Positions 1-21,567 of a stretch of DNA of 21,589 bases are shown here, piece after piece. The notes under the pieces were generated by a model. The model did not search any database, had not been told where the DNA came from, and saw only the letters and a list, made by a program, of their open reading frames with translations. The stretch comes from a virus: IMG/VR virus record IMGVR_UViG_3300037119_004758, positions 1 through 21,589 of that record. One strand, written 5' to 3'. Numbering within the stretch: position 1 is the stretch's first letter; every line of letters starts with the position of its first letter. The translations under genes and the position numbers were made by a program.

Positions 1-2
1 AG

Positions 3-80
3 CCCGCCCTGGTGGTCGCTGGGACCGCCACAGCGCCCACAACACGGTCCGGGACGGACCCGGCGCCCACATCCCGCTAA
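3..80 (+). CDS. 3' end of an unidentified upstream gene (partial)
   Basis: An open frame runs in from the left edge and stops at TAA 78-80, giving a 25-residue Ala/Thr/Pro-rich tail that ends in APTSR. The ribosome-binding site of the next gene begins 3 nt later, as expected for a gene end in this compact region. By position just before the head-tail adaptor it could be the end of a capsid-region gene, but nothing in this fragment identifies it. One of the other two frames is also open here, so even the frame is not certain. Confidence 0.35.
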   Translation, partial: PALVVAGTATAPTTRSGTDPAPTSR

Positions 81-97
81 CCCGGAGGGAGGCCCCG

Positions 98-916
98 GTG
101 TTGGATCTCGGCGACACTCATACGACCTCCATCCGCGTCTACGACGCGCCCCCCGACCAAGGCGGGGTTCTCATCAACGCGGGCACCGTCACCCTGACGA
201 TCACCCTGCCGGACGGGACGGTGAGCACCCCGACGCCGGTGAACTCCTCCACCGGCCGCTACAAGTACGACTTGATCACCACCCAGGAGGGTTTGCACAG
301 CATCCGGTGGCAGACGCTGAACCCGGCGACGGCGCAACCGGACGTCGCGATCGTCCGCGCCACGGCGCCGCTGTTCATGCTCAGCCTCGCCGACGCGAAA
401 CGCGCTTTGAACAAGAGTTCGTCGATCACCGTCGACGACGAGGAGATCCGCGACCTGCTGGAGGCGACGACCCTCGTCGTCGAAGACTGGTTGAAGCAGG
501 TCGTGCCGCCGCGTGTCGTCACCCAACGGATCGACACCTACGGGCAGGACCGGCTGCTGCTGAAGCCCCCGGTGATCTCCCTGACGTCGATCACGAGGGT
601 CGCGCCGGACGCCGGCACGTACCCGGTCGGCGGGCTCGTCGTCAACAAGCCGTTCGGCATCGTCGACACCTACGGCGCGCCGTTCTACGGCGCCCTCGAC
701 GTCGTGTACCGCGCCGGGTACACGAGCCCCCCACCGAACTACGTGGAGGCCGCGAAGGTCACCCTGCAGCACCTGTGGCAGGGGCAGCAGCAGCCCGGCG
801 TCGGTCCGCCCAGCCCGTTCGGGGAGCAGGAGTTGTCGGTCCCGTCGGGTAGTTTCTTCGCCCTCCCCCCGCGGGCGATGGAGCTGCTCGGCGGCCGAGG
901 CCCCGGCTTCGCATGA
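98..916 (+). CDS. Head-to-tail adaptor with N-terminal Ig-like domain
   Basis: This 272-aa protein probably joins the capsid portal to the tail. Residues 1-90 look like a beta-sandwich of the Ig-like kind, with alternating hydrophobic strands around VTLTITLPDGTV and GLHSIRW. Residues 95-135 (LSLADAKRAL, then DDEEIRDLLEAT and VVEDWLKQ) match the helical start of gp6-like head-tail connectors. The rest is beta-rich and ends in a Pro/Gly tail. The GTG start at 98 is chosen because GGAGGGAGG lies 6 nt upstream; the frame is open further left but without a comparable ribosome-binding site. The last bases overlap the next gene as ATGA. Family assignment is from fold-like pattern and position, not a search. 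Confidence 0.75.
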   Translation: MLDLGDTHTTSIRVYDAPPDQGGVLINAGTVTLTITLPDGTVSTPTPVNSSTGRYKYDLITTQEGLHSIRWQTLNPATAQPDVAIVRATAPLFMLSLADAKRALNKSSSITVDDEEIRDLLEATTLVVEDWLKQVVPPRVVTQRIDTYGQDRLLLKPPVISLTSITRVAPDAGTYPVGGLVVNKPFGIVDTYGAPFYGALDVVYRAGYTSPPPNYVEAAKVTLQHLWQGQQQPGVGPPSPFGEQELSVPSGSFFALPPRAMELLGGRGPGFA

Positions 917-1341
917 CTGCCATACCGCTCGTGCTCGACGCGCTCGTCGCCGCCCTCCGGCTGGCGCCCGACCTCGCCGCGGTCGACGTCTTCGACGGCC
1001 CCCAACCGATCGCCGCCGGTGGTGAGGGCATCGCGGTCGGCGCCAGCCGCGAGGACAACTCGGTGGAGTTCACATGGCCCCCCGCGGACCTCGCCGGGGG
1101 CGACGCCGAGCACGCGACGATCGCCTGCCTCGTGTGGTCCGGCAGTGGCGACACCACCTTCGCGCCCGCCCGCCTCCGGGTTGCTGAACTCCTCGACGCC
1201 GTCGACGCGGCGCTGTCCGCGAACCGCACGCTCAGCGGCGCCGTCACCCGCGCGTGGATCACCGACGGGGTCCTGCAGCAGCAGCAGGCCAATGGGGCGC
1301 TCGTCACCTGCGAGTTCCACGTCGAGACCGACCTGTTCTAG
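913..1341 (+). CDS. Probable tail terminator / tail-completion protein
   Basis: The product has 142 aa. An N-terminal helix (residues 1-20, LVLDALVAALRLAP) is followed by alternating strands and a second long helix near RLRVAELLDAVDAAL, then a C-terminal strand pair ending VTCEFHVETDLF. This helix-sheet layout and size fit the tail terminator proteins that cap siphovirus tail tubes, and the position between adaptor and tail tube is the expected one. The ATG at 913 overlaps the previous stop (ATGA), so translation is probably coupled. A neck or stopper role is the alternative; no catalytic motif is visible. Confidence 0.6.
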   Translation: MTAIPLVLDALVAALRLAPDLAAVDVFDGPQPIAAGGEGIAVGASREDNSVEFTWPPADLAGGDAEHATIACLVWSGSGDTTFAPARLRVAELLDAVDAALSANRTLSGAVTRAWITDGVLQQQQANGALVTCEFHVETDLF

Positions 1342-1355
1342 AAGGGACACCGCTC

Positions 1356-1697: not shown

Positions 1698-1984
1698 GCG
1701 ACACCGTGTGGATCACCCACCCCGGCACCGGCGGGGTCGTCGAGGTCCCCGAGGAAGCCCTCCCCCAGTACCGGCAGTCGGGGTGGGATGTGATGCCCGA
1801 GAAAGAGGTCGAGCGGCGCGCGAAGGCCGCCGCCGACGAGGCTGCCGCCGCCGAGGCGGCGATGGTCGAGGCCGGGAAGGTCGCGCTCGGGCAGGTCCCG
1901 CCGCCGCCGACCGCCGAGCCTCCCCCCGAGGTATCCGAGGTTGAGGTCACGGACGCGAAGTCCACGAAGAAGGGGAACGGCTGA
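1694..1984 (+). CDS. Hypothetical small protein with Ala/Glu-rich helix
   Basis: This 96-aa protein starts at the ATG overlapping the previous stop. Residues 1-35 (VWITHPGTGGVVEVPEEAL, then YRQSGWDVM) form a compact motif found in small phage proteins that contact the capsid or neck. Residues 36-65 are a charged Ala-rich helix, and the tail is Pro-rich (PPPPTAEPPP) and ends in a Lys-rich stretch. No enzyme motif is present. The stop TGA at 1982-1984 shares a base with the ATG of the tail tube gene (TGATG), so the two are likely translated together. Function is unknown; a structural or scaffolding-like role is inferred only from the neighbours. Confidence 0.65.
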   Translation: MSDTVWITHPGTGGVVEVPEEALPQYRQSGWDVMPEKEVERRAKAAADEAAAAEAAMVEAGKVALGQVPPPPTAEPPPEVSEVEVTDAKSTKKGNG

Positions 1985-2469
1985 TGGCTGCGCCGGCTAT
2001 TACCGCGAGCGTCCGTTACACGTCTCGCGGCACCACGAAGATTTACTGGGTCGCGACGATCGCGAACTACCTGTCGCCGAGCCGCGGTGAGCTGAACGCG
2101 GGGGTGGATCTGAGCCCGCAGCTCAACGACTCCGCCGGGTGGTCGATGTCGAGCGAGCAGATCGACACCCCCGACATGGCCAACCGTTTCACCAGCAAGA
2201 TCCCCGGCGCGATCACGGCGGAGGACTCGTCGCTGACGATGTACGCGTCGAAGACCGGCGTGGACGCGCGGATCACGATGCCGCAGGACGCCGTCGGCAA
2301 CATCGTGTTGCTCTACGGTGGGGACACCGCGGGCAACAAAATGGATGTCTGGCCCGTGACGGTAGCCTCGGTCGCGAAGCAGATCAGCGTGCAGGGCGGC
2401 GACGCCGACACCCTCGTCATCGCCTACTCGCCGACGAACGTGCCCGCGCAGAACGTCACCATCCCGTAG
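1984..2469 (+). CDS. Major tail (tail tube) protein
   Basis: This 161-aa protein lies immediately before the tail assembly chaperone and so is the best candidate for the tail tube subunit. The sequence alternates strands and turns throughout (residues 8-30 TSRGTTKIYWVATIANY, 60-85 around SSEQIDTPDMANRFTSKI, then SSLTMYASK and NIVLLYGG). The last third (MDVWPVTVASVAKQISV, TLVIAYSPT) matches the layout of siphovirus tube proteins, where the C-terminal part sits on the outside. The start shares a base with the upstream stop and the stop TAG overlaps the next GTG, so three genes are coupled. No extra C-terminal Ig domain is seen. Confidence 0.75.
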   Translation: MAAPAITASVRYTSRGTTKIYWVATIANYLSPSRGELNAGVDLSPQLNDSAGWSMSSEQIDTPDMANRFTSKIPGAITAEDSSLTMYASKTGVDARITMPQDAVGNIVLLYGGDTAGNKMDVWPVTVASVAKQISVQGGDADTLVIAYSPTNVPAQNVTIP

Positions 2470-3793: not shown

Positions 3794-4156
3794 ATGGCTG
3801 AGATCACGATGGTTATCAACGGGGAGCGGTTCTCGATCGGGAACGACCCGCAGAAGTTCACCGCCGAAGAACTCATCGCCGTCGAGCAGCACACCGGGAT
3901 GATGGTCACCGAGTGGGCGGAGAAACTCGCCGACGAGCGGATCAGCCCGAAGGCGTGGACGGCGCTCGCGTTCATCGCGGTGCGCCGCGCCGGCCGGATG
4001 GTCCGCTGGGATGACTTCGCGGCGACCCTGTCCGTGTACGACCTCGTCCAGGGCCTCGGCGGCATTCCCGACCCGCCCGCGGTCGTGCCGAACCGGGCGG
4101 AGCGTCGCGCGAAGCCGCAGCCGAAGACCGCGCCGGTGCACCCCGCCAGCGCGTGA
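3794..4156 (+). CDS. Second tail assembly chaperone-like protein
   Basis: This 120-aa protein has GGGGAG 6 nt before its ATG. It opens with a strand-turn pair (MAEITMVINGERFSIGND) and a helix (FTAEELIAVEQHTGMMVTEW), then a second helix (ALAFIAVRRAGRMVRWDDFA), and ends in a Pro/Lys/Ala tail. The pattern of a short beta hairpin, then a helix of the AIE-x-TGL-type, then a hydrophobic helix ending RRxG is what I associate with actinophage tail assembly chaperones encoded just before the tape measure gene. The window therefore has two chaperone candidates. The stop overlaps the next GTG, and I saw no slippery heptamer near its end. Confidence 0.6.
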   Translation: MAEITMVINGERFSIGNDPQKFTAEELIAVEQHTGMMVTEWAEKLADERISPKAWTALAFIAVRRAGRMVRWDDFAATLSVYDLVQGLGGIPDPPAVVPNRAERRAKPQPKTAPVHPASA

Positions 4157-4392
4157 CCCACGTCGACGCCTCGCACGCGGTCGGCCGCGACGAGTTCCGG
4201 GCGTGGCTCGCCGAGTACGGCATCGACCCCAGCGACGTCTACACGATCGGCGTCCGCTTCTGGTGCCGCGATGACGTCGTCGTCGCCGCCTTCGATGTCG
4301 AGTGGAGCCGAGGCCACTGCGATGCCCTGCCCATCACGGTGCTGTGGCCGACGGGGCTCCGCTCCTGGCCGCCGCTGACGCCTATCGAGTAA
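4153..4392 (+). CDS. Hypothetical protein upstream of the tape measure gene
   Basis: This 79-aa protein has its GTG start in the GTGA overlap with the previous gene. An N-terminal helix (DEFRAWLAEYGIDP) is followed by strands (YTIGVRFWCRDD, VVVAAFDVEW) and a Trp/Pro-rich end. It has one Cys in the first strand and another in RGHCDAL. No family is recognised. It sits in the -1 frame relative to the preceding chaperone-like gene, the arrangement of a chaperone extension, but with a normal overlapping start and no slippery run, so separate translation is more likely. Confidence 0.55.
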   Translation: MTHVDASHAVGRDEFRAWLAEYGIDPSDVYTIGVRFWCRDDVVVAAFDVEWSRGHCDALPITVLWPTGLRSWPPLTPIE

Positions 4393-4433: not shown

Positions 4434-7400
4434 GTGGCGACTCTGCGATACGACGTCGACGTCGACACCAAACGCGCCGAAGCCCGCATCGGCGCGTTCG
4501 CGCTGCGAATGCGGAAGCAGATCAGCGACGCCATCAAGTCGCTGCCGGAGATCGAACTCGACGCGAACAGCACCAAGGCGCAGGTCGAGATCGCCCGCAT
4601 CCGCCGCGAGCTGAAGGAACTCTCGAGCAAGCGCATCGGCATCGACATCGACGCCAAAGCGGCGGAGGCCGAGCTTAAACGGCTCGGTGGGCAGCTCCGC
4701 GAACTGTCCGGTAAGTCCGGCAGCATCCAGGTCGACGCGGACGTCGCCTCCGCGCTGGCGGCGCTGAAACTCGTCGACAAGGAGGTCGACAAACTCGACG
4801 GGCGGAAGGCGACCGTCAAGGTCGACGTCGACCGCTCGTTGGGCGACAGCATCATCCAGGTGACGCGGCTCGCCGGCGCGTTGAAGGCCCTCACGCTCCC
4901 CGCCGCAGCGCTCGCGGTGGTGCCGCAACTCGCGTCGATCGGCAACGCCCTCATCGACGTGTCCGGCGCTGCCGGGTTGGTGCCCGCCGCTGTCGCGGTC
5001 GCGGGTGGCGCGATCGCCACGCTGGCCGTCGGTTTCGCGCACGTCACCGACGCGCTCGGCCCCGCCGGGACGCCGGCGCAGTTGAAGAAGGTCACCGAGG
5101 CGCTCGCGCTGTTGTCGCCGAACGCGCGCACCGCGGTTGAGGCGGTCCGCGGGTTCGCCGGGGCGTGGACCGACCTGCGGCTTGACGTGCAGCAGAAGCT
5201 GTTCGCGGGGATGTCTGCCGAGGTGAAAGACCTCGGCAAGGTCGCGCTCCCCCAGTTGCGGACGGGGCTCGGCGGGATCGCGGAGGAACTGAACCTCAGC
5301 GCCCGCGGCTTGCTCGACTGGGCGAAGCGGGGCAGCACGATCCGCGACGTCGGGGTGCTGTTCTTCGGGGTGAAGCAAACCCTCCACGAGCTCGTCCCGG
5401 CCGGCGCGAACGTGGCGCAGGCGTTCCTCGACATCGGTGTCGTCGGCATGAAATTCCTGCCGGGGCTGGCGGCGGAGGCGGAGAAGCTCACCGAGCGGTT
5501 CCGCAACTTCATCGGGGAGGCTCGCGAGTCGGGGAAGCTCCAAGAGTGGATCTCCACGGGGATCGACAAGCTCGCCGAGCTGGGCAAGATCGTCCTGAAC
5601 GTCGGGTCGGCGCTCGGCGCGTTCTTCAAGGCCGGCGCGGTCAGCGGCGCCGACTTCCTCGGCACCCTGCAGAAGGTCACCGGGGAGGTCGCGAAGTTCC
5701 TGAACAGCGCGGAGGGGCAGAACGCCCTCGTTGCGATCTTCCGCACGATCCGCGACGTCGTCGACGCGCTGCTGCCGGCGGTCATCGCGGTCGGGAAGGA
5801 AATCGCGGAGGGCATCGGCACCCTCGCGCCGAAGATTAAGCCGCTCGCGGAGGCGTTCGCCGACACGTTGAAAGCGGCGGCTCCGATGGTGGGGGTGCTC
5901 GCCGAATTGGCGTCGGCGGTCCTACCTCCGATCACCGCAGCGCTCGCCGTCATCGGCCCGTTCCTCGCGCCGATCGTCGTCGGGTTCGCCGCGTTCGCCC
6001 TCGCGTCGAAGGGCATCCTCGCCGTCGCGCAGTCGCTCGTCGCCGTGAAGACCGCGCTGATGGGCATCAGCGCCGCGAACGTCGTGCTCGGCGCCGTCAC
6101 CCTCGCGGCCGTCGGCCTCGCCGTGCTGTTCGATCAACTGCGGGACAAGTCGGGGGAGCTGGCGCAGAAGATCGTCGACGGGTCGATCACCATGCATCAG
6201 GCCATCGCCGAGGAGACCGCGCAGATCGAGCGGCGGAACCTCGCGATGGACGCGGCGACGACCGCCGCGAACGAGGGCATCGTCTCCTCCCGGGAAAGTG
6301 CCAGCGCTTCCGAGGTCAACGCCGAGGCCACCGCGAAGGTCACCGAGGAGCACAAGAAGCTCCTCGCGGCGATGGACCCGCTCACCCGGGCGCAGACCCA
6401 GGTACGGGAAGCGCAGACGGCGTTCAACGAGGCCGTCGCGGCGTTCGGCGCAGGTTCCCCAGCGGCCCAAGCCGCCGCGGGCGAGCTGGCGACCGCGAAC
6501 CAGCACCTCAAGGACATCACCCAGCAGACCGCGGACGCGACGAAAACCCTCGGCGACCGCATCGTGGAGACGTCGCAGCATGGCGCCGCCGCGGCGAACT
6601 CCCAGGTCGGCTACAAGCAGTCGCTGCTCGACCTGGCGGACGCGACGAAGCGGGCCGCCGCCGCCACGCGGGAGCACGGCGCCAGCTCGGATGAGGCGAC
6701 CAGGGCGAACCTCGCCGTCGAACAGGCGAGCCTGCGGGCCGCCGCCGCAGCGCAGAAGCTGGCGGAGGACAACGCGAGGGCGAGCGGCTCGACGAACGTC
6801 GCGGAGATCGGCGCGCAAGCCTACAAGGAGGAGTTGCTGCGGCAGGCGTCGACGATGACCGGCCCGTTGAAGCAGGCGCTCATCGACCAGGCCAACGGAT
6901 TGGACACCGCGAAGCGCGCGACGTCGACGGCGGAGATCCAGAGCCGCTTGTATAAGGACCAGTTGGGGTTGCTCGCCGGGCAGACCTCCGGCCCGTTGGC
7001 GGCGGCGCTGCGGGGCGCCATGCAGAACTTCGACACGCTCGGCGGCGCGCACGCCACCGCGCAGCAACGCGCGGAGGCGCAGAAAGCGGAACTGCTCCGG
7101 CTCGCCGCTATGGCGAGCGGCCCGCTCCGCGCGTCGCTGCTGGCGATGGCAGCTCAAATCAACACCCTCCCCGACGGGTCGTTCACGATCACCGGCACCG
7201 GGGTCATCAACCCCCTGCAAATCAGCAGCGGCACCGGCCGGGGTGCGTCGACGTTCGGGCTCGCCGAAGGCGGCGTCATCGGTCAGATGGCCGATGGCGG
7301 CGTCATGCCCGGCTACACCCCCGGCCGCGACGTGCACCGCTTCGTCAGCGCCACCGGGGGGATTCTGGACCTGGCCGGCGGTGAGCCGGTGATGCGCCCC

Positions 7401-8288
7401 GAGTTCGGCCGCGCCGTCGGCCACCAGTGGATCCACGCGGCGAACAAAGCGGCCCGCACCGGTGGTGTCGCCGGGGTGACGAGCTTCATCAGCCGCACCG
7501 CACCCCGCGGCCCCGGCGTCGAAGGGCGGCAGGGCGACGGCAGCGCATTCGCCCGAGGTGGTGTCGTCCCGCATCAGCGGCTCGCGTTCGGCGGGTACGT
7601 CGCCGCCGGCACGCAACCGTTCCCGCGGGTCGCGACCGAGTCGTACATCGCGGCCCGCAACAAGCTCGTCGCGATGGAAGCCGAGAAGATCAAAGCGCAG
7701 ATCAAGAAGTGGTTGGAGGCCGGCGGCAACGGCCTCGCGTTCGCGCGCACCCAAGTCGGCAAACCCTACATATGGGGCGCCAGCGGACCGGGCGGTTACG
7801 ACTGCTCCGGGTTCATGTCCGCGATCGTCAACGTGATGCGCGGCCGGTACCCCTACTCGCGGGTCGGGTCGACGGGGACGTTCCCGTGGGCGGGGTTCTC
7901 CCCCGGCCTCGGTGCCGGGTTGAACATCGGCGCGTTCCGCGGCAACCCCGGGCACATGGCGGGCACCATCGCCGGCGTCAACGTCGAGTCCGCCGGGTCG
8001 GTCGGTGTGCGAGTCGGTGGGCCGGTCGGCGCCACGAGTGGCATGTTCAACATCCGAGCGCACCTCGCCGACAAGGGCGGGTTGCTGCCCAGCGGGCACG
8101 CCGCGGTGAACCTGTCCGGCCGTGACGAGTACGTCGTCGCCCCGCAGACGGCTCAGACGATGGGGAGTACGTACAACGTGAGCGTGATCTTCCAGAACGC
8201 GATCAACGCGATGGATGACTCCCTCATGCGGCAGGCCGCCATCAAAGTCGCCGACGCGATCAAGCAGGTTGAGCGGAGCCGGTCGTGA
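4434..8288 (+). CDS. Tape measure protein with C-terminal NlpC/P60-type domain
   Basis: The 1284-aa protein sets tail length and is ejected with the DNA. GTG 4434 follows a GGAGGGGGG run. Residues 1-135 carry five short strand-helix units starting near residues 6, 40, 70, 98 and 128. Hydrophobic, probably membrane-active stretches lie near 148-205 and 485-565. Ala/Gln-rich coiled helices fill about 600-960, and a Gly-rich linker follows. Residues 1105-1200 resemble an NlpC/P60 cysteine peptidase: KPYIWGASGPGGYDCSG places the candidate Cys at 1124, and GHMAGT places His at 1174. This would let the incoming phage cut peptidoglycan. At about 1.5 angstrom per residue the tail would be roughly 190 nm. 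Confidence 0.92.
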   Translation: MATLRYDVDVDTKRAEARIGAFALRMRKQISDAIKSLPEIELDANSTKAQVEIARIRRELKELSSKRIGIDIDAKAAEAELKRLGGQLRELSGKSGSIQVDADVASALAALKLVDKEVDKLDGRKATVKVDVDRSLGDSIIQVTRLAGALKALTLPAAALAVVPQLASIGNALIDVSGAAGLVPAAVAVAGGAIATLAVGFAHVTDALGPAGTPAQLKKVTEALALLSPNARTAVEAVRGFAGAWTDLRLDVQQKLFAGMSAEVKDLGKVALPQLRTGLGGIAEELNLSARGLLDWAKRGSTIRDVGVLFFGVKQTLHELVPAGANVAQAFLDIGVVGMKFLPGLAAEAEKLTERFRNFIGEARESGKLQEWISTGIDKLAELGKIVLNVGSALGAFFKAGAVSGADFLGTLQKVTGEVAKFLNSAEGQNALVAIFRTIRDVVDALLPAVIAVGKEIAEGIGTLAPKIKPLAEAFADTLKAAAPMVGVLAELASAVLPPITAALAVIGPFLAPIVVGFAAFALASKGILAVAQSLVAVKTALMGISAANVVLGAVTLAAVGLAVLFDQLRDKSGELAQKIVDGSITMHQAIAEETAQIERRNLAMDAATTAANEGIVSSRESASASEVNAEATAKVTEEHKKLLAAMDPLTRAQTQVREAQTAFNEAVAAFGAGSPAAQAAAGELATANQHLKDITQQTADATKTLGDRIVETSQHGAAAANSQVGYKQSLLDLADATKRAAAATREHGASSDEATRANLAVEQASLRAAAAAQKLAEDNARASGSTNVAEIGAQAYKEELLRQASTMTGPLKQALIDQANGLDTAKRATSTAEIQSRLYKDQLGLLAGQTSGPLAAALRGAMQNFDTLGGAHATAQQRAEAQKAELLRLAAMASGPLRASLLAMAAQINTLPDGSFTITGTGVINPLQISSGTGRGASTFGLAEGGVIGQMADGGVMPGYTPGRDVHRFVSATGGILDLAGGEPVMRPEFGRAVGHQWIHAANKAARTGGVAGVTSFISRTAPRGPGVEGRQGDGSAFARGGVVPHQRLAFGGYVAAGTQPFPRVATESYIAARNKLVAMEAEKIKAQIKKWLEAGGNGLAFARTQVGKPYIWGASGPGGYDCSGFMSAIVNVMRGRYPYSRVGSTGTFPWAGFSPGLGAGLNIGAFRGNPGHMAGTIAGVNVESAGSVGVRVGGPVGATSGMFNIRAHLADKGGLLPSGHAAVNLSGRDEYVVAPQTAQTMGSTYNVSVIFQNAINAMDDSLMRQAAIKVADAIKQVERSRS

Positions 8289-9502
8289 CGAGCCTCTACG
8301 GGACCGTCACGCTGGGCCGGCTGCCCGCGTTGTTCGAGGCGTTCGAGGTCACCCAAAGCGGCGACGGGGTCCTCGCGCTGGCGGTGCAGGCGAGCTCGAC
8401 GGCGCTGAGCACCTCGCGCGTCGAACGCTTGCGCGACGACCTCCTCGGGCTGCCCGGCAAACTGATCCCCGTCACTTGGTCGGACAAATCGTTCCTCGGC
8501 GGCTTCTACACCGTGTCGTCGGTCAACGTGAAGCACTGGTCCTACCCCGGGCTCGCCGCCGCCGGCACCCGCCGCGTCTTCGGCTCCGCCGACGTGCAAC
8601 TCCAGCCGGGCGGCTACTCGAACACCGCGGACATCGAGAGCCGCCTGTCGGGGGCGCAGACCCGGCTCAACGACTTCTCTGGCACCGGGGAGATTTGGCA
8701 CGCCCCGCCGATCGGGCACAGCGGCTACCTCGCCGGCACCGCCGTCCCCACTGCCGTGACCCGCACCGGGGAGGACGGCGCCGTCGTCGTCTACCGGGGG
8801 CTCGCGTTCGGCGCGAACCCCCGCTGGGGCGCCACGACGACGACGTTCCCGCAGGGCCGGGTGCGGTTCGTCGACTCCAACAATGAGGAACGCTCGGGGC
8901 AGGGCGTCGCGCTGTCACCGGTCGGCTGGGTGCTCAGCAACGGCTTGGTGCGCGTCACGCCGCTGGTGTCCGGTGGGGTGTTCAGCGTCGACGCGTACAC
9001 GGGCGGCGCGTGGCGGGCGAAGGCGTGGGACGTCCTCGATAACGCCGCTTCGATCACCCCCGTCGACGGGGTCGACATCCTGCAGAACGACTACGAGACG
9101 GTCGTCGTCCGGCTCTACAAGGGACAGTCGCAGGGCCGCGTCACCGTCGACCTCACGCTCCGCCGGGGCTCCCGCTTCGTGGAGCTGTTCGTGCAGTCCG
9201 ACACGAGCGCGACGCTGAAGGTCGTCAAAGCGGTGACGGAGGCCGGGACGAACGCGACCGCCGGGATGGTCATCGCCAGCAGCAACGACGCCGACGGCAA
9301 CAAGTACGTCGTCGGCTCCTCCAAGACGTTCACGGCGGACACCACCATCGGCGGCCTCTCCAAAGCCTCGGTCGTGGCGCTCGATGCGTTCGTCGGTGTC
9401 ATCGCCGGCGGCACCGCAGCGGTCACCGGCGACCAGGCCGCGAACCTGTATGCCCAGTACCTCGGGTCGAGCACCGAGGTCGTCGCCGCGGTGCGCCGCT
9501 GA
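8285..9502 (+). CDS. Minor tail protein (distal tail type)
   Basis: The 405-aa protein starts at a GTG in the GTGA overlap with the tape measure gene, the usual place of the distal tail protein that caps the tube. Residues 1-110 (SLYGTVTLGRLPALFEAF, then LPGKLIPVTWSDKSFLGGFY) form a strand-rich N-terminal domain like those of siphovirus distal tail proteins. From about 145 to the end the sequence is a long regular beta structure with repeated Gly-Asn turns and Trp (WVLSNGLVRVTPL, FSVDAYTGGAWRAKAWDV, FVELFVQSDTSATLKV). This could be a jelly-roll or carbohydrate-binding module. It shares a base with the next ATG. Exact role is inferred from order. Confidence 0.75.
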   Translation: MTSLYGTVTLGRLPALFEAFEVTQSGDGVLALAVQASSTALSTSRVERLRDDLLGLPGKLIPVTWSDKSFLGGFYTVSSVNVKHWSYPGLAAAGTRRVFGSADVQLQPGGYSNTADIESRLSGAQTRLNDFSGTGEIWHAPPIGHSGYLAGTAVPTAVTRTGEDGAVVVYRGLAFGANPRWGATTTTFPQGRVRFVDSNNEERSGQGVALSPVGWVLSNGLVRVTPLVSGGVFSVDAYTGGAWRAKAWDVLDNAASITPVDGVDILQNDYETVVVRLYKGQSQGRVTVDLTLRRGSRFVELFVQSDTSATLKVVKAVTEAGTNATAGMVIASSNDADGNKYVVGSSKTFTADTTIGGLSKASVVALDAFVGVIAGGTAAVTGDQAANLYAQYLGSSTEVVAAVRR

Positions 9503-12500
9503 TGCCGATCACGGAGAGTCTGCAGGCCCTCGGGCAGTGGTCGATCAGCTTGAAGGCCACGACGCCGAAGTCGGTGACCGACGCGATCCTCGACCTCGGG
9601 CACATCTGCGTGCACGCTGCGCGGCAGAACCCGCGGATCAGCGGCGACGCGCTCCTCGCGTCCGCGCGGTATGTGGGGGTGGTGCGGACCCGCGAGTTCA
9701 CCGATGAGACCCGGCGGCTCGGCGGGCCGGGGATGGCGTTCTGGCTCGGCGACGAGGACGACAAAGGCTCGGTGTTCGAGACGGCCGTCAACTTGTCCGG
9801 CAGCAGCTTCATCACCGGCGTCACGAACCTCCTGCCCGCCTCCGGCAGCATCACCGCCGGCACGATCGGCACCGTCAGCGGCACACCGTTCACCGGGTCG
9901 TTCGTGTATATGACCCCGAAGAAGGCGCTCAGCCAATTCTGCTCGTACTGGTCGAACACCTACGGACAGGCGGAGTGGCAGGTCACCGGCGACGGGAAGC
10001 TCAACGCCGGCACCATCGACCAGCTCTACGTCGTGAACCCCTCTGCGGTCATCGCCCGGAAGATGAGCGGTCAGGACATGGCGCTCCGCGGGCTGCTCGG
10101 CAGCGCCGAGGCGACGTCGGACCTCGCGGACTTCTCCACCCGCGTCGTCGTCCTCGCGCAGGGCGAAGGTCCCGCCACCGCGATCGGGCAGGCGAACATC
10201 ACCGGGGGGCTCAACCCGTACAAAGACATCCACGGCAACACCGCGGTGCTCACCCGCGTCGTGTCCGCCAGCGACACCGAAGCCACCAACGCGACTCCAC
10301 TGGCGCAGCTGCAGCTGAACCGGTTCCTCCGCGCGAAACGCACGTTGAAGGTCGGCACCGATGAGGTCGACATCGACGGGTCGTTCGAGGTCGGCGACTT
10401 CGTGTGGGTGTGGGATCCCGACTCGGGGATGGTCGACACCGCGGTCCCCGCCGCCGAGGTCATGTTCCGCGGGCACCGGCTGAATCCGTTGAAGATCCGC
10501 GTTACGGAGATGACCAGGCCGATCAGCCTCGGCATGGGCGTCGCCTACCGCGACTATCTCGGGAACTGGTTCGACCTCACCGACTACGTCGAGTACGAGG
10601 ACGCGAAGACGACGATCACCGTCGGCTCCGACCCGCGGGGCCTCCTGACGGACCTGACGGAGTCTGTCGGCTCGCGGCCGAAACCCGACGCGAGCATCCC
10701 CGCCGCGCCCTCCTGGACGCTGCCGTTCACCGTCAGCAGCTACCTCCCCACGAGCGGGATCACCCGCTCGCAGGTCGCGGTGCGGTGGTCGCAGCCGCTG
10801 AACACGGACGGCACCCCGATCATCGACGGCGCCTATTACGAGCTGCAGTGGCGCACCACCGACCACCTCGTCAATCCGGCGACGTGGGCGACGGCGAGCG
10901 CCTACGTGTGGAGCCAACTCAACACCTGGGACGCACCCGAACCCCCGGTGGCGAGCGGGCCGTGGACGGCGACGAGCGTCGGCTTCGACATCACCAGTTA
11001 CACGATCGCGGACCTCACCCCCGGCTCGTCCATCGAGCTGCGGATCCGCGCGGTGGACACCGCGTCGCCCCCCAACTTGGGCGGCTGGTCCTCGTCGTCG
11101 ACGGTGACGTTGCCGACCGACCCGTTCCCACCCAGCCCGCCGGCCCCACCTGCGATCGTGTCGTCGCTCCTGGCTGTGCAGATGACGCACACCCTCGGCC
11201 GCGCCAGCGGTGGCACGTACAACCTGGAGGCCGACCTCGGGTGGTTGGAGCTGCACGGGGACCTCGACCCGCTGTTCGCGCCGACCGCGGCGACGCTATT
11301 GGGGAAGGTGCCGGCGACGCGGGGGATGATCGCCGCGCAAACCCCCGTGGTCGAGACGTTCAAGGTCGACCAGGTCCTGTTTCCGACCCAGTTCAAGGTC
11401 ATCGCTGTCGACCTGGCCGGCAACCGCAGCCTTCCCAGCACGGCCACGAGCGCGACGCCCGGCCTCATCAACAGCCAGTACGTGTCGGAGTTGACCGCCA
11501 GCAAGATTTCCGCCGGGTCGATCCTCGTGGACCTCCTCATCGGCGGCAGCATCTCGACCGCGGCGGCGGGTCAGCGCACCCGCATGGACGTCTCCGGGTT
11601 GCACACCTACAACTCGTCGAACACCCTGCTCGTCGACCTCAACAGCGACACCGACGTCAACCTCCTGACCGGCGTGTTCCAGACCGGGCTGACCGGCACC
11701 CGCGTCGTCATCCCCACCACCGGTGAAATCAACTTTTATCCGTCGAGCGGCGCGAACTACTCCCGGTTGAACTTCATCGGCACCACCGACATCTCGGTGC
11801 GCGGCCCGCTCGACGGCAACGGCCGCTCGGGCAGGATGAACGCGAGCAGCACCAACGTCGCGATGACCTTCTGCGACGAGGATAGTTTGGCGACGGGCGG
11901 ATTGTTCACGTTCCTCAATATGACGAAGACCGACACCACGTTGATCAGCCCGACGACGACGTTCGCGATCGACGGCATGTCGGCGCACCCCCCGGCGACA
12001 ACCCGGCTTATCCAGTTCTGCACGAACGATTCGAGCAACGCGAACATCAGCGACAGCTTCATGATTTATAACCGGCGGGCGTCGGGTGGCGGGTCGAACT
12101 TGCTCGCCCCGTCGCAGGGCAGCGGGTTCGCGTTCAACGGCGGCGTCATGTACTGCCGCAACGGCACCGACACCAGCAACGGCAACTTCGAGGCCCTCAC
12201 CCTCTCGCAGCCGTCGTCGCGGGCGGTGAAACGTGCCATCCGCGACATCGACTGGGCCGGCGTGAAGGCCGTCGACCTCGTGACCCGCGTCAAGTCGCAG
12301 CAGTACGAGTATCTCGTCGAGGCCGCCGAGGTGGAGACCCCGCGCCCGCAGTTCGTGCCCGGCGTGACCCGTCGAGTACCCCGGTGGGCGGCGGACGGCA
12401 CGACCCCGGTTCTCGACGCGGACGGCGCGCAGATCGTCGACATGGCGCCCGCCGAGTGGGGGTACCCGCAGCCGACGGTCGTGCCGAAGCATTACGGGCC

Positions 12501-12924
12501 GATGGCCGATGACATCGCTGTGATCGCCCCCGACGTCGTGCAGACGAGCCCCGCGACGGGGGAGATGACCCTCCCGCTGAACGACGTCGTCGGGATTCTG
12601 TGGGACGCGGTCGGCAACGTCGCGCAGCGGGAGGTCCGCGCCAACGACGTGCGGGTCCTGAGCCCCCTGTTGAGCGCCGCCGCGTTCGTCGACGTCCCCG
12701 TCACCTGGCCGGGCGGCCCGCTCGTGATCGAACCCGACGACGCGATGATCTGCCGCGAAGGCTTCACCGTCGCCCAGTCGGTGCGGATGCAGACGACGAT
12801 CGTCCCCCTGTCGATCACCCGCTCGGGCTGCACCGTGCGGGTCACGATCACCGGGGCGGACATCGCCGCCAACGCCGGCCTCCTGCACGTCACCGCCCTG
12901 TCCTGGCGCACCACGATCATCTGA
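9502..12924 (+). CDS. Tail hub/spike protein with FN3-like and S74-type chaperone regions
   Basis: This 1140-aa protein is probably the central tail-tip protein. Residues 1-390 resemble tail-associated hub proteins (WSISLKATTPKSVTDAILD, then WQVTGDGKLNAG and FEVGDFVWVWDPDSG). Residues 395-540 have fibronectin III-like strands (VAVRWSQPLNTDGTPI, YYELQWRT, IELRIRAVDTASPP). Residues 650-890 are a repetitive beta-rich shaft. At 905-1045 there is an S74 intramolecular-chaperone pattern: SSRAVKRAI with Ser905 and Lys910 five apart, then QQYEYL, YGPMADDIAVIAPDVV and LPLNDVVGILWDAV. In that family Ser and Lys carry out self-cleavage after trimer folding. About 95 residues of beta-rich sequence follow, which is more than usual. 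Confidence 0.8.
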   Translation: MPITESLQALGQWSISLKATTPKSVTDAILDLGHICVHAARQNPRISGDALLASARYVGVVRTREFTDETRRLGGPGMAFWLGDEDDKGSVFETAVNLSGSSFITGVTNLLPASGSITAGTIGTVSGTPFTGSFVYMTPKKALSQFCSYWSNTYGQAEWQVTGDGKLNAGTIDQLYVVNPSAVIARKMSGQDMALRGLLGSAEATSDLADFSTRVVVLAQGEGPATAIGQANITGGLNPYKDIHGNTAVLTRVVSASDTEATNATPLAQLQLNRFLRAKRTLKVGTDEVDIDGSFEVGDFVWVWDPDSGMVDTAVPAAEVMFRGHRLNPLKIRVTEMTRPISLGMGVAYRDYLGNWFDLTDYVEYEDAKTTITVGSDPRGLLTDLTESVGSRPKPDASIPAAPSWTLPFTVSSYLPTSGITRSQVAVRWSQPLNTDGTPIIDGAYYELQWRTTDHLVNPATWATASAYVWSQLNTWDAPEPPVASGPWTATSVGFDITSYTIADLTPGSSIELRIRAVDTASPPNLGGWSSSSTVTLPTDPFPPSPPAPPAIVSSLLAVQMTHTLGRASGGTYNLEADLGWLELHGDLDPLFAPTAATLLGKVPATRGMIAAQTPVVETFKVDQVLFPTQFKVIAVDLAGNRSLPSTATSATPGLINSQYVSELTASKISAGSILVDLLIGGSISTAAAGQRTRMDVSGLHTYNSSNTLLVDLNSDTDVNLLTGVFQTGLTGTRVVIPTTGEINFYPSSGANYSRLNFIGTTDISVRGPLDGNGRSGRMNASSTNVAMTFCDEDSLATGGLFTFLNMTKTDTTLISPTTTFAIDGMSAHPPATTRLIQFCTNDSSNANISDSFMIYNRRASGGGSNLLAPSQGSGFAFNGGVMYCRNGTDTSNGNFEALTLSQPSSRAVKRAIRDIDWAGVKAVDLVTRVKSQQYEYLVEAAEVETPRPQFVPGVTRRVPRWAADGTTPVLDADGAQIVDMAPAEWGYPQPTVVPKHYGPMADDIAVIAPDVVQTSPATGEMTLPLNDVVGILWDAVGNVAQREVRANDVRVLSPLLSAAAFVDVPVTWPGGPLVIEPDDAMICREGFTVAQSVRMQTTIVPLSITRSGCTVRVTITGADIAANAGLLHVTALSWRTTII

Positions 12925-16076: not shown

Positions 16077-16379
16077 ATGCTGACCGCGGAGTTCTGGAAG
16101 AACACCGCCGAACGCGCGGTGAAAACGTTCGCGCAAGCATTGCTCGCCGTGCTCGTCGTCGAGCTCGCCACGACCACCGTCGCCGGGGTCGACTGGAAAA
16201 CGATCCTGCTCACCGCGGCCGGCGCGACGCTGCTGTCCGTATTGACATCCGTCGCCGGGGTGGCGGTCGGCCCGAGCGGCTCCCCGTCACTGGTCGTCGA
16301 CACGAACGCGACAGCCGCGACGCTGCCGCTCGCGGAGCCCCCACCACCGACACCCGCGCCGCCGACCGTCTCGCCCTGA
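16077..16379 (+). CDS. Holin, r1t-like family
   Basis: This 100-aa protein follows a GAGGAGGG site by about 9 nt. The N-terminus (EFWKNTAERAVKTFAQALLA) is the signature I associate with r1t-type holins. Membrane helix one is about 18-37 and helix two about 43-67 (ILLTAAGATLLSVLTSVAG), joined by GVDWKT. The tail after residue 70 is Pro-rich and polar. It would form the pore that lets the endolysin reach the wall and sets the time of lysis. It is the last gene of the rightward cluster; its stop is 1 nt from the stop of the convergent minus-strand gene. Confidence 0.88.
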   Translation: MLTAEFWKNTAERAVKTFAQALLAVLVVELATTTVAGVDWKTILLTAAGATLLSVLTSVAGVAVGPSGSPSLVVDTNATAATLPLAEPPPPTPAPPTVSP

Positions 16380-17634: not shown

Positions 17635-17771
17635 TTCGGCGCCTTCCGCACGTCCGCGTGGACCTGCTGCCACTGCTGACAGTGCCGACAGATCGTCACG
17701 TCGTCGGTGGCGTTGAGTTGCACCCGGTGCCAGTCGTGACCCTGGTCGCTGGTGCAGTAGGGGCCGTTCAC
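17631..17771 (-). CDS. 46-aa zinc-finger-like protein
   Basis: This gene runs from GTG 17771, in a GTGA overlap with the gene before it, to TGA 17633-17631, overlapping the peptidase start. The sequence has NGPYCTSDQGHDWHRV, then ICRHCQQWQQVH, giving Cys, two His, CxxC and a final His as likely metal ligands. The layout is that of a tiny treble-clef or zinc-ribbon. No precise family is recognised. Confidence 0.6.
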   Translation of the reverse strand: MNGPYCTSDQGHDWHRVQLNATDDVTICRHCQQWQQVHADVRKAPK

Positions 17772-17851
17772 GACCGCCGCCCGTTGGCGCAGTACCAGCA
17801 GAACTTGTCGAGGCGCCGGCCGTGCGGGCAGTACCCGATGCTCTTGCCCAT
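17768..17851 (-). CDS. 27-aa Cys-containing peptide
   Basis: ATG 17851 has AGGAGA 6 nt upstream on the minus strand, a strong site for so short a gene. The product reads MGKSIGYCPHGRRLDKFCWY and then CANGRRS: Cys-Pro-His and CxxC spaced ten residues apart form a compact CxH...CxxC metal knot. It ends in GTGA shared with the next gene. Its first codons and ribosome-binding site belong to the duplicated junction also found at 18311-18366. Confidence 0.5.
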   Translation of the reverse strand: MGKSIGYCPHGRRLDKFCWYCANGRRS

Positions 17852-17899
17852 GTCCTGTCTCCTGTCATTTCCGTCGGGACAGCAACCGCCGCCCGAGCC
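17843..17899. repeat. Direct repeat copy A (duplicated gene junction)
   Basis: This segment matches 18311-18366. The core 17861-17884 is identical over 24 nt to 18328-18351, followed by a 15-nt stretch with two mismatches, and preceded by an identical 12-nt block covering ATGGGCAAG on the minus strand. It holds an upstream gene's last codons, a stop, a ribosome-binding site and a new start. Confidence 0.85.
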
Positions 17900-17918
17900 C
17901 TGGTGGCGCGTCGCTCAT
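17865..17918 (-). CDS. 17-aa ORF, probable duplication remnant
   Basis: ATG 17918 lies in an ATGA overlap and reads MSDAPPGLGRRLLSRRK. Its last ten residues (LGRRLLSRRK) are the same as the end of the membrane protein encoded at 18332-18541, and the DNA matches too. It may be a translated micro-peptide, but is more likely a leftover 3' end copied together with the ribosome-binding site of the next gene. Confidence 0.3.
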   Translation of the reverse strand: MSDAPPGLGRRLLSRRK

Positions 17919-18091: not shown

Positions 18092-18319
18092 TCACAGCCC
18101 CTTCCGGTGGTGGCGGGTGACGGTGTCCTTCGTGCTCTGCACGACCACGTCCTTCGTGGTGAGCGGCCCGCCGTGGCCCCTCCACCTGCCCCAGTGCTGC
18201 TTCTCCAGATCCTCGAACCTGGCCTCGGCCGTGTCCTTATCCCCGGCGTCGTGAGCCTGGCGGTACTCGGATTCGAGGTGCGCCCGGTGCGTCTCGAATG
18301 CCTTCCTGTTCTTGCCCAT
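18092..18319 (-). CDS. Hypothetical charged helical protein (75 aa)
   Basis: ATG 18319 has AGGGGAGAG about 4 nt upstream. Residues 1-45 are one long charged helix (NRKAFETHRAHLESEYRQAH, then KDTAEARFEDLEKQHWGRW), possibly a coiled coil. The end is basic (TKDTVTRHHRKGL). No catalytic or metal motif is seen. Its start region, MGKN, is a near copy of the start of the 27-aa gene at 17851 (MGKS). Function unknown. Confidence 0.6.
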   Translation of the reverse strand: MGKNRKAFETHRAHLESEYRQAHDAGDKDTAEARFEDLEKQHWGRWRGHGGPLTTKDVVVQSTKDTVTRHHRKGL

Positions 18320-18366
18320 GTCTCTCCCCTGTCATTTCCGTCGGGACAGCAGACGCCGCCCGAGCC
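18311..18366. repeat. Direct repeat copy B (duplicated gene junction)
   Basis: Second copy of the junction repeat, about 467 nt from copy A. Here it joins the end of the membrane zinc-knuckle gene to the start of the 75-aa gene. Same orientation, so a tandem duplication or copying by recombination is likely. Confidence 0.85.
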
Positions 18367-18541
18367 GTGTCCTCGAACCCTCGCCGCCGCACCACCAGCA
18401 CGACCGCCACGCGGTGCGCTGCCCTGGTTGGCGGGCTTTACCGCTGCCGTGGCATCCGCGGCAGGTGACGTTCGGGTAAACCACGCACAACCCGACGTAG
18501 ATCACACCCGCGACTGCTAGCGCAAGCGTCAGAGTGTTCAT
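18332..18541 (-). CDS. Membrane-anchored protein with two DnaJ-like CxxCxGxG motifs
   Basis: This 69-aa protein starts at ATG 18541 behind a GGGGGG run and is the first gene of the small-gene operon. Residues 2-22 are a membrane helix (NTLTLALAVAGVIYVGLCVV). Then come CRGCHGSGK and, about 17 residues on, CWWCGGEG. Two CxxC(H/G)G(S/E)G copies are the half-zinc-finger unit of DnaJ and related proteins; a pair can bind one zinc. The basic C-terminus is LGRRLLSRRK. A cytosolic zinc knuckle held at the membrane could recruit a partner; which one is not visible. Confidence 0.65.
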   Translation of the reverse strand: MNTLTLALAVAGVIYVGLCVVYPNVTCRGCHGSGKARQPGQRTAWRSCWWCGGEGSRTRLGRRLLSRRK

Positions 18542-18573
18542 CCGACACCCCCCGAAGCTCCACCAGTGGGGGG

Positions 18574-18680
18574 CGCTAGAACCGCTAACACCGCTAAACC
18601 GCAGGTCACAGACCTGCCCTGTGCGCTAGCGTCAGCGCTAGACCTAGCGCAGGCTGCCGTCGAAGCTAGGGGCATCGCTA
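18574..18680. repeat. Iteron cluster with nested palindromes (candidate clt, origin or operator)
   Basis: Three adjacent 9-mers, CGCTAGAAC, CGCTAACAC and CGCTAAACC, start at 18574, 18583 and 18592. Further CGCTA copies are at 18624, 18636 and 18676, and inverse copies (TAGCG) at 18627 and 18645. Within them are two perfect inverted repeats: GCAGGTC/GACCTGC (18601-18617, 3-nt spacer) and TGCGCTAG/CTAGCGCA (18622-18651). The block occupies nearly all of the 136-nt gap between the translocase stop and the first small gene. Repeats next to a TraB-type gene are where actinomycete plasmids keep the clt transfer locus; replication iterons or an operator for the small-gene operon are the other readings. 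Confidence 0.65.
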
Positions 18681-20807
18681 GGCCCCAACCCGGTCGTCGG
18701 GCTCGTCCAACGCCTCGAAAAGCTCCGCGCGCAGCACCCCGTAGCGGTTGCCGGTCTCCCCGTCCAAGCCCTCGGCCCACACCTGCCGGGTCTTCACCCC
18801 GAACGGCTTCAACGCCGCCGACAACTGCGCGGGCTCCCACCCCGCGTACCGCTCGGGCCACCGGTCCGCCAACCGCGAGCACAGTACGTCGGAGTGGGCC
18901 TTCTTGTCCGTCGCCATCACCGTCGCCAAGTCAGCGGCGACCGAGTAGGCGGGTGGGGTCGCCATCGGAACCAGCCCCGAAGCCATCCCGTCCAACGTGC
19001 CCGCACGCTCCCGCAGCAGCTTCCCGCGCAGGCAGATCGCCTCAGCGTCCAGGCCCTCCGCCAGATACGTGCGGACCGCGCCGGCCAGCACCTCCAAGCC
19101 GTCATCACCCGTGCCGCGGAGCAGGCCGCAGCCCTTCACGTCCGGGCTCAGCAAGCTCGCGTCCAAGCCCTCGCCGTAGGCGCCGGCCCCGAGGATGGCT
19201 TCGGAGGCGTGCATCGTCGTGACCCGCAGCGCGAACTTCACGACGAACTGATCGCGGAACCCCGTCGGGGTGCTCTTCGAGTCCGGTTTCTGTGTCGCCG
19301 CGACTGTGATGATCCCCGTCGACGGGCCCACCTTCACCAGGTCCGTCAGCACCTCGTCGAGTTCCGCGCCGTACGTCTTGTGCCTGAACGCGCGCTGCAC
19401 CTCGTCGATGACGAACAGGATCAGCGGCATCCCCGCGCTCCGCGTCCGCGACAGTTCCTCGGTGAGCTTCCCCTGGGGGCACACCTCCGCGGGCAGCGTG
19501 CGGAGCGTGCGGTTACGCCGGTCGACCTCCGCGAGGAGTTCCTTCGCTCCGTCCAACAGGGCGAGCACCGGGTCGACGCCGGTGTCCGGGTCGGGCCGGT
19601 CGCCGTAGAACAGGCGGTGCGCGACGTGCCGGAACGGCACCCAGTCGGGGCTGCCCTTCATGTCGTGGATGCGGATCTGCACATGCGGGTCCAACGCCGC
19701 AGCCAGCGCGGGGAGCCGAGCGGAGAACGTCTTCCCCTGCCTCGGCACGGCACCGACCAGCATCGACTGCCACAGCAGGCACAGCGGCACGACCACACCG
19801 CGCTCGTTGACGCCGAACGGCCACGGCTCCCAGAAGTTGACACGACCCGTGTCAATCAGCGGGGACATACCAGCGGGCACCGACAGTGGGTCCACGTCGC
19901 ACACCCACAGCGCAACCCTGCGGGCTGAGCCTGACGCGCCGCGGACGCGGGACAGGAACACTTGCCGCTCATCCACGTCCAACCCCGACGCGATCTTCGC
20001 GCGCCTGCTCATCGCGTCGTCGGCGGTCACCCCGAACGGCAGGTCGATGACCACGCGGTAGCCGTTCGCGTCGCGGTGGATCGGCGTCGCGAACGTGATC
20101 GGGGAATCCTCACCGCACAACTTCGCCACCGTGAACGCGCGAGTCACGATCCCCGGCGACAGCTTCCGGGTGGTGTTCGGCACCACCGCCGCGGGGATCA
20201 GTGGCTTACCGGGTGTCGCGCCGAACCTGCCCAGGGCGAACAACGCCACGAACAGGACGGGGATGTGCACCCACCACGCGGTGACCACCCAACCCACCAC
20301 CGCACCCGCCGCGAGGACAGCGCCAACGACGCCGACGATGAGCGCGCGGCGATGCACCGCCGCGTCACGCTCCTTCCGCAGCTTCAAGTAGTCGGCGGTG
20401 TTCGCCTTGTCACGCTCCGCCAACCTCAGCGGCCGAGCCTCCCAGTCGAACACCCACGCCGTGACGATCGCCAACAGCCGCCACAACCCGCGGGGCGCGT
20501 ACCAACCCGCCAGGGCGAGGTACCGGGGCGAGCGGACCGCGTGGAACTGCGACACATGCCGCACCTGCCCCACGGCCCACGTCACGGCCTGCTTCCGCTG
20601 CTCGGCTTCCCGCAGCCATGGCGCCACCACCGGCCGGCGTTCGGGGGCTTCCACCTGCCACGGCGCCGGCACCGGGGCAGCGCGGATCGCCACCTCCGCA
20701 GCCGGTCGCACCGGGAGGTCCACGAGTTCGGCGTCCACCACGGGGCCCGCGACTTCCAACTCGGCGCTCACAGCGTCGCCGTCGGCTGCGTCATCAGCGC
20801 TCGCCAC
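18678..20807 (-). CDS. FtsK/SpoIIIE/TraB-like DNA translocase
   Basis: This protein of about 709 aa is an ATP-driven pump for double-stranded DNA. Residues 1-60 are acidic/Pro-rich, and a membrane hairpin lies at about 155-193 (RALIVGVVGAVLAAGAVVGW, then VLFVALFAL). The motor has Walker A GAVPRQGKT (352-360) and Walker B ILFVIDEV (463-470), followed by GIITVAATQKPDS, FALRVTTMHASEAILG and KGCGLLRGT, the usual FtsK motif order. The C-terminus (640-700: LADRWPERYAGW, LKPFGVKTRQVW) resembles a winged helix for DNA recognition. GTG 20807 is preferred for its GGGAGG site; GTG 20771 (GTGA overlap, 697 aa) and GTG 20819 are alternatives. Family and neighbours suggest TraB/TraSA-type transfer rather than cell division. 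Confidence 0.85.
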   Translation of the reverse strand: MASADDAADGDAVSAELEVAGPVVDAELVDLPVRPAAEVAIRAAPVPAPWQVEAPERRPVVAPWLREAEQRKQAVTWAVGQVRHVSQFHAVRSPRYLALAGWYAPRGLWRLLAIVTAWVFDWEARPLRLAERDKANTADYLKLRKERDAAVHRRALIVGVVGAVLAAGAVVGWVVTAWWVHIPVLFVALFALGRFGATPGKPLIPAAVVPNTTRKLSPGIVTRAFTVAKLCGEDSPITFATPIHRDANGYRVVIDLPFGVTADDAMSRRAKIASGLDVDERQVFLSRVRGASGSARRVALWVCDVDPLSVPAGMSPLIDTGRVNFWEPWPFGVNERGVVVPLCLLWQSMLVGAVPRQGKTFSARLPALAAALDPHVQIRIHDMKGSPDWVPFRHVAHRLFYGDRPDPDTGVDPVLALLDGAKELLAEVDRRNRTLRTLPAEVCPQGKLTEELSRTRSAGMPLILFVIDEVQRAFRHKTYGAELDEVLTDLVKVGPSTGIITVAATQKPDSKSTPTGFRDQFVVKFALRVTTMHASEAILGAGAYGEGLDASLLSPDVKGCGLLRGTGDDGLEVLAGAVRTYLAEGLDAEAICLRGKLLRERAGTLDGMASGLVPMATPPAYSVAADLATVMATDKKAHSDVLCSRLADRWPERYAGWEPAQLSAALKPFGVKTRQVWAEGLDGETGNRYGVLRAELFEALDEPDDRVGA

Positions 20808-21010
20808 GATGCCTCCCACCTACGGAACTGCTGCAACTCCAACTCCTCACGGCGCAACTGCAGCCGGTACATCACCCACCGGAACCCGAGCAGCACCGCC
20901 CACCCACCAGCCACACCGAAGCCGACCCACCCGCCACCCGCATAGGTCATCGCCCCGGTTGAGCCGACGACGAGGAGTGCTGTGTCGGGGACGTCACCCT
21001 GGTTGGTCAC
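20768..21010 (-). CDS. Small membrane protein of the transfer operon
   Basis: This 80-aa protein has GTG 21010 in a GTGA overlap. Residues 10-45 contain two closely spaced hydrophobic stretches (ALLVVGSTGAMTYAGGG and VGFGVAGGWAVLLGF). Then comes a charged helix (YRLQLRREELELQQFRRW) and a short polar end. Small membrane proteins between the DUF2637 gene and the FtsK-like gene are a constant part of actinomycete transfer operons, where some are called Spd (plasmid spread) proteins. No sequence-specific match is claimed. Confidence 0.62.
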   Translation of the reverse strand: MTNQGDVPDTALLVVGSTGAMTYAGGGWVGFGVAGGWAVLLGFRWVMYRLQLRREELELQQFRRWEASWRALMTQPTATL

Positions 21011-21567
21011 GACACACCCACCGAGTGCAGAGGCTCGCGCGTGACATCCGGGTCACGCTGCCGGTCACGCTGACGCGCCTTCCGCTCCCGCGCCAGTCGC
21101 TTCGCCCGGTCCTCGCTGGACTCCTCGACCGTGACCGGCGCTGGCGTGGGTGGCGTGACCTTCGGCGTGACCTTGCGCGGTGCACGTGCAGCCTGGGATT
21201 TCACGGGCTGCCGGCGAGCCAACGACGCCATCACCACAACCGCCTCAACCGCCAGGACGAGCAGGACGGACAGCCACCACTCCTCGCCGTAGGCCACGAG
21301 TAGTCGGACAGCGTGGGTCAGGTTCACCACCGCCGCAGCCCCGCAGATCACCGTCATCACGACGGCGCGGATCGCCCGCGTCCACGGACCCGTGATCGGG
21401 ACACGGGGCCACAGGTGCAGCGACACGGGAACCAGCACGGTGGCGAACACGCCAGCGGCGATACGCGCGGAGCCGTCCGAGGCCGCCCACGCGACGTTCG
21501 CAGCACCGGATGCGAGGACGCCGACGGTCAGTGCGACGTTCGGACTGGTGAACTTCACCTGTACCAC
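21007..21567 (-). CDS. DUF2637/SpdB-like four-helix membrane protein
   Basis: This 186-aa protein starts at GTG 21567 with AGGAGGG 6 nt upstream (21574-21580 on the plus strand). Membrane helices are near residues 10-28, 37-55, 64-85 and 99-117. The third and fourth carry NLTHAVRLLVAYGEEWWLSV and LAVEAVVVMASLARR, close to the H-x6-G-x-xWL...P/L-x-D/E-x-LV pattern I recall for DUF2637. After residue 120 comes a Lys/Arg/Pro-rich cytoplasmic tail with a long charged helix (SSEDRAKRLARERKARQRDR). In AICEs and Streptomyces plasmids DUF2637 genes lie just upstream of the FtsK-like transfer gene, as here. Confidence 0.62.
   Translation of the reverse strand: MVQVKFTSPNVALTVGVLASGAANVAWAASDGSARIAAGVFATVLVPVSLHLWPRVPITGPWTRAIRAVVMTVICGAAAVVNLTHAVRLLVAYGEEWWLSVLLVLAVEAVVVMASLARRQPVKSQAARAPRKVTPKVTPPTPAPVTVEESSEDRAKRLARERKARQRDRQRDPDVTREPLHSVGVS

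Follow-up and report, generated by a model that had tools for sequence, protein, structure and literature searches.

A siphovirus late region beside an AICE-type translocase module with a predicted clt in a virus fragment of probable actinobacterial origin

AICEs are defined as elements in which an integrase and a replication initiator occur together with Tra (Ghinet et al. 2011, PMC3218068). TraB of the plasmid pSVH1 reportedly uses its winged helix to bind repeated 8-bp motifs, and the clt of pWTY27 overlaps traA by 16 bp and extends 159 bp beyond it (both in PMC3583192). Zhong et al. 2010, by its title as cited in the same source, reported the Streptomyces plasmid-phage pZL12 to have a transfer function and a plasmid/lytic phage cycle. 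Given this precedent, the presence of phage genes and transfer in one element is not unprecedented. P1-like phage-plasmids with gained mobilisation functions are reported to have lost phage functions (PMC10879196).

Here, we analyzed a stretch of virus DNA (hereafter the window) that represents a complete IMG/VR record of the linear class, exactly 21,589 b long; because it is the entire record, it has no flanks. Like pZL12 (phage ZL12, GQ919031), the window holds late phage genes and an FtsK/SpoIIIE-type transfer gene in one element, and the best match to its major tail protein in the phage collection is that of ZL12 (35% identity). In contrast, pZL12 is a 90-kb record in which the translocase lies beside the terminase-portal end and not against the lysis genes, and the translocases of the two elements did not match at the settings used. 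With AICEs and pSVH1-type plasmids encoding TraB, the window shares the translocase family, the partner genes and a repeat cluster 3' of the translocase. These elements have Int and/or Rep genes but lack virion genes, whereas the window carries virion genes; it also falls outside the AICE definition, as neither an integrase nor a replication initiator was recognised in this 21.6-kb fragment.

Two further relatives were deposited as plasmids: pPoc2, a 61-kb plasmid of Pseudonocardia oceani KRD185, and pPaSha2 (CP052773.1), a 42-kb circular plasmid of Pseudonocardia alni. A description of pPoc2 as a phage was not found in the one open-access paper that matched. A third relative, L003, is an IMG/VR contig from another metagenome.

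Late phage genes and the leftward arm

An earlier note on this DNA had described a complete tail and lysis region facing a conjugation-type module. The ORFs on which this description was based all exist, from 98-916 to 16077-16379 on the forward strand and at 18678-20819, 20768-21010 and 21007-21567 on the reverse strand (Table 1), and the main ORFs have a coding-type GC3 of ~0.82-0.95. The tail and lysis content was borne out by family matches (phrog_442, PF25595, phrog_6090, PF01510, PF16945). Completeness was not, since the family searches revealed no terminase, portal or capsid gene in the 21,589-b record, which is a fragment. Thus, of the genes expected of a siphovirus, the window has those for the tape measure, tail tube and lysis, while those for head and packaging lie outside the fragment and are present in pPoc2 and pPaSha2. 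No direct DNA relatives of the window were found among phages, and family searches of the record recognised no integrase, repressor or replication genes.

Table 1 Features of the window, with the evidence for each assignment.
Position	Strand	Feature	Evidence
98..916	+	Head-tail adaptor (connector)	phrog_442 E 6.4e-24; 33% to pPoc2, 35% to pPaSha2
913..1341	+	Phage late gene, function unassigned	phrog_22863 E 1.7e-27
1984..2469	+	Major tail (tube) protein	PF25595 E 1.5e-30; 36% to pPoc2
3794..4156	+	Probable tail assembly chaperone	Position before tape measure, coding GC3 0.93; function inferred
4434..8288	+	Tape measure protein	phrog_6090 E 6e-54; 37% over 1185 aa to pPoc2, E 6e-172
8285..9502	+	Distal/minor tail protein (inferred)	Position, GC3 0.94
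9502..12924	+	Minor tail / receptor-binding type protein	fn3 and endosialidase-chaperone-like stretches, weak PF00041, PF13884
14965..15855	+	Endolysin, Amidase_2	PF01510 E 8.5e-14; phrog_880 E 4e-41
16077..16379	+	Holin, r1t type	PF16945 E 2e-20; phrog_443; 44% to pPaSha2 holin
18332..18541	-	Small one-TM protein, CxxCxGxG-type zinc-ribbon motifs	Accompanies AICE-type translocases as partner gene
18517..18681	.	Candidate clt, 9 copies of CGCTAR in both orientations	165 bp, overlaps translocase stop
18678..20819	-	TraB/AICE-type FtsK-like dsDNA translocase, 713 aa	Homology, tree, AF2 model
20768..21010	-	80-aa protein upstream of translocase, overlaps translocase start	ORF; 87% in L003
21007..21567	-	Multi-TM membrane protein, 186 aa, at DUF2637/Spd gene position	Similar size and place

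Among the tail genes, the tape measure has a weak NlpC/P60 match toward its C-terminus (PF00877, E 0.0015), and the product of 9502..12924 is 28% identical over 152 aa to that of pPaSha2 40279-40725. The profile searches (Pfam, PHROG) gave no family match for 8285..9502. Just 5' of the tape measure, the ORF 3794-4156 shares part of its sequence with the ORF 4011-4274 in another frame, an arrangement comparable to that of programmed-frameshift tail chaperone genes.

The late genes and the leftward arm converge, and the GC content is even across their junction. The single nucleotide that the earlier note had placed between the last stop codons is found between the holin stop (16379) and a small leftward ORF (16381-); the stop of the translocase is 2.3 kb from there, at 18678. 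A tRNA search found none between the phage part and the transfer module.

The CxxC zinc-ribbon gene occupies the same position in L003, pPoc2, pPaSha2 and many AICE-like loci. The DUF2637 identity that had been proposed for the 186-aa membrane protein was not supported: the protein has no relevant Pfam/NCBIfam match and no PF10935 match, and hhalign found no match between it and the DUF2637 proteins encoded at related loci (E 0.07 over 12 columns). Hydropathy indicated no TM segment in the 80-aa protein. Elsewhere in the arm, the leftward ORF 17167-17670 encodes a HEASH motif whose spacing, by eye, is like that of an M41 peptidase domain of the FtsH type; Pfam gave no match, and a single hydrophobic stretch lies before it. 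In addition, a 64-bp stretch is duplicated with 89% identity at 17839-17902 and 18307-18370, around the starts of small leftward ORFs, and L003 has a related copy.

A translocase of the TraB/AICE family

The earlier note had read the 18678-20819 product as an FtsK/TraB-like motor with a membrane hairpin and a winged-helix end, and this reading was confirmed. The AlphaFold2 model (pLDDT 83.8) has a two-helix hairpin (residues 141-200), a motor with Walker A around 356-364 and Walker B at D472/E473, and a C-terminal winged helix (627-705); the N-terminal membrane segment was also seen by hydropathy. Foldseek matched the model to the FtsK motor 6t8o (E 6e-15), and profile searches reached FtsK, TcpA and EccC structures. 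The protein aligns with pSVH1 TraB (31.8% over 403 aa, E 1e-38) and is 30-60% identical to translocases of plasmids and AICE-type loci across actinobacteria. Against the NCBIfam TraB equivalog it scored 21 of 800 bits, below the cut-off. Thus, we refer to it as a family relative, and not as TraB in the strict equivalog sense.

We then placed the protein in a maximum-likelihood tree, obtained by a quick, short search and with long branches among the outgroups. The translocases of the window, L003 and pPoc2 form one clade (100) within the family that holds pSVH1 TraB and the AICE-type translocases, while chromosomal FtsK, EccC and the remote pZL12 and Gilgamesh proteins fall outside this family (99). 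On the basis of the tree and the homologues, we rejected an identity as chromosomal FtsK or as a packaging motor. Judged from these comparisons, the 18678-20819 product belongs to the TraB/AICE family and not to chromosomal FtsK.

A translocase of this kind could also serve the phage's own life, with no transfer between cells; for example, it might partition an extrachromosomal prophage as hyphae septate or spores form, or move DNA at the cell membrane while infection proceeds. FtsK-like genes are listed in ordinary phages by PHROG and annotators (a phrog_1358 match; Gilgamesh gp10), and the module occupies the leftward arm, the site of lysogeny genes. However, translocases of this family belong to conjugative plasmids and AICEs, the CxxC partner gene of AICEs is kept, and the clt-type repeat cluster is placed as in pSVH1. 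Moreover, the phage collection contains no close relatives of the translocase, its only weak match being the remote Gilgamesh gp10 (24%). We consider a role confined to the phage unlikely and favor transfer between cells.

A repeat cluster that covaries with the winged helix

Directly behind the translocase gene, the CGCTAR cluster contains 7 of the 8 CTAG sites in the window. The highest count elsewhere is 1 in the window, 2 in L003 (9 in its cluster) and 2 in pPoc2 (6 in its cluster, where the repeat is of the CTAGGA type). Because noise masked the repeats in a generic score of 7-mer clustering (best in 25/110 loci), the CTAG count and base-class tests were used instead. Across 79 AICE/plasmid-type loci, the 450 bp 3' of the translocase contain a mean of 6.4 CTAG against 0.43 expected, and in 67 of them this segment has the highest CTAG count of the locus. 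As a positive control, the pSVH1 record has five GACCCGGA directly after traB, at 8158-8249. We take GACCCGGA to be the TraB-bound clt motif of that plasmid.

The repeats differ among the relatives. pPaSha2 has a weak, CTAG-poor version and a TAGC-type cluster further on, behind its CxxC gene. In a more distant clade, many virus contigs have CTCTA repeats in place of CTAG, and in some translocase subfamilies no such repeats were found.

Between loci, the repeats vary at the base before CTA (CCG-CTAG versus CCT-CTAG). We asked which translocase residues follow this base: residues 693 and 678 rank first and second among 661 alignment columns for association with it, and both are in the winged helix, on wing strands in the AF2 model. 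In the 134 dereplicated loci, Arg693 occurs with G in 76/76, and 17 changes of the base label map onto the motor tree. The choice of motif was partly post hoc; therefore, we repeated the test on a held-out set of loci, non-redundant and drawn from two orders. There, Arg693 occurred with G in 22/22 and residues other than Arg/Lys with T or C in 12/14 (Fisher p 7e-8, with shared ancestry ignored). Both exceptions have Tyr693, and the window and L003 likewise have Tyr with G. The 693 rule is broken in an outer subfamily with a different wing, which has Lys with CG (L165, L168, L180, L269 and L270).

This covariation, over 17 label changes, argues that the translocase reads the CGCTAR repeats via its winged helix. 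Thus, a repeat locus near the gene is present, and covariation points to its recognition by the winged helix, as expected of a clt. We propose that the cluster is probably the clt of AICE-type elements, undescribed in the open-access literature searched. Rep or repressor proteins also use such repeats, and CTAG is rare in this high-GC DNA generally, so the cluster might represent operators or replication iterons and not a transfer site. We regard this as improbable: the variable base follows a winged-helix residue of the translocase, and the cluster lies 3' of the translocase in elements that differ in their replication and regulation genes. A clt read by the translocase remains our preferred reading.

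Recurrence of the combination and a model for its spread

The two plasmids carry head and packaging genes that are missing from the window. pPoc2 encodes terminase, portal and capsid, tail proteins 33-37% identical to those of the window (tape measure, tail tube and head-tail adaptor), a translocase 60% identical, and CxxC and DUF2637 proteins. It differs from the window in its clear DUF2637 homologue, its repeat type and its serine integrase. The pPoc2 circle has a single 21-bp attP, with the integrase gene starting beside it. The same assembly (loci L120-L128) contains, together with pPoc2, a virtually identical, circularly permuted copy that is inserted into the chromosome and bordered on each side by a hybrid att site. 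The attachment site lies within a gene whose start resembles a low-molecular-weight protein tyrosine phosphatase (VFVCTGNICRSP, by eye).

In pPaSha2, the order is terminase, portal, protease, capsid, tape measure, lysin and holin, then the converging CxxC, FtsK and DUF2637 genes, and then integrase and repressor. As in the window, its lysis genes converge on the CxxC-FtsK module; in contrast, its translocase is only 36% identical and sits on another branch of the tree. In L003, the translocase gene, whose product is 92% identical, precedes the CxxC gene, with holin and lysin genes on the opposite strand, and so the module adjoins lysis genes in the window, L003 and pPaSha2. Among 34 virus records encoding a relative of the translocase, roughly half also have portal or capsid genes, taking the IMG/VR provirus borders as deposited. 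Together, the circular relatives, L003 and this survey indicate that the phage-plus-translocase combination recurs and did not arise by accident in a contig.

A clade of virus contigs (L012-L035) encodes related translocases, several of them adjoining terminase and portal genes, and has CCCCTCTA-type repeats 3' of the translocase. This clade is a second phage-borne branch of the same theme.

As pPoc2 and pPaSha2 hold both parts and L003 repeats the arrangement of module and lysis genes, we conclude from these sequence comparisons that the module is not a chance neighbor of the phage genes. That a prophage and an unrelated AICE adjoin by chance in a chromosome, or that the contig is chimeric, is very improbable: the record has no flanks, IMG/VR proviruses can include neighboring elements and AICE-type loci are common in these hosts, but two independent circular plasmids contain both parts, a contig from a second metagenome has the same translocase beside different lysis genes, GC is even over the junction, and no integrase, replication gene or tRNA was recognised between the parts. 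The circular relatives likewise make unlikely an unrelated neighbor with its own att sites, which the earlier note had named as a way to overturn its reading; the other, a translocase grouping with chromosomal FtsK, was not observed in the tree. Its view of a phage joined to an AICE/plasmid-type module therefore stands on homology, the tree, the circular relatives and the covarying clt-like repeats; DUF2637 is not supported for the upstream gene. As to a phage-plasmid state, the window is linear, while its relatives pPoc2 and pPaSha2 were deposited as plasmids, with pPoc2 also integrated.

Consequently, we consider it likely that the window derives from a temperate actinobacterial siphovirus that carries a transfer module of AICE type together with a clt of its own. 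The window would represent the late half and the start of the leftward arm of the genome, and the closest relatives suggest a Pseudonocardiales-like actinobacterial host. In our model, the leftward arm supplies the membrane protein, the small protein, the TraB-like translocase, the CxxC zinc-ribbon protein and the repeat cluster. In the lysogen or plasmid state, the translocase would be anchored in the membrane through its hairpin, and its C-terminal winged helix would bind the CGCTAR repeats on the element's own DNA. A translocase hexamer would then assemble and pump the double-stranded circle into a contacting cell. Upon induction, the rightward genes would produce virions. Thus, two routes of spread may be open to the element, one through virus particles and one through direct cell contact.

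We give about even weight to a wider hypothesis, in which a dual-mode lineage of temperate actinobacterial siphoviruses spreads as virions and, in addition, sends naked double-stranded circles from cell to cell through a TraB-type translocase reading its own CGCTAG-type clt, with the same code used across AICEs and supplying their missing clt. Beyond the pZL12 precedent, our comparisons point to a recurring siphovirus lineage with an AICE-type module, a predicted clt and a putative recognition residue. An element family that keeps both functions, with an intact circular form, would bridge two modes of spread, and the repeat cluster with its residue-to-base rule offers a concrete, testable clt and specificity determinant for a large AICE-type family.
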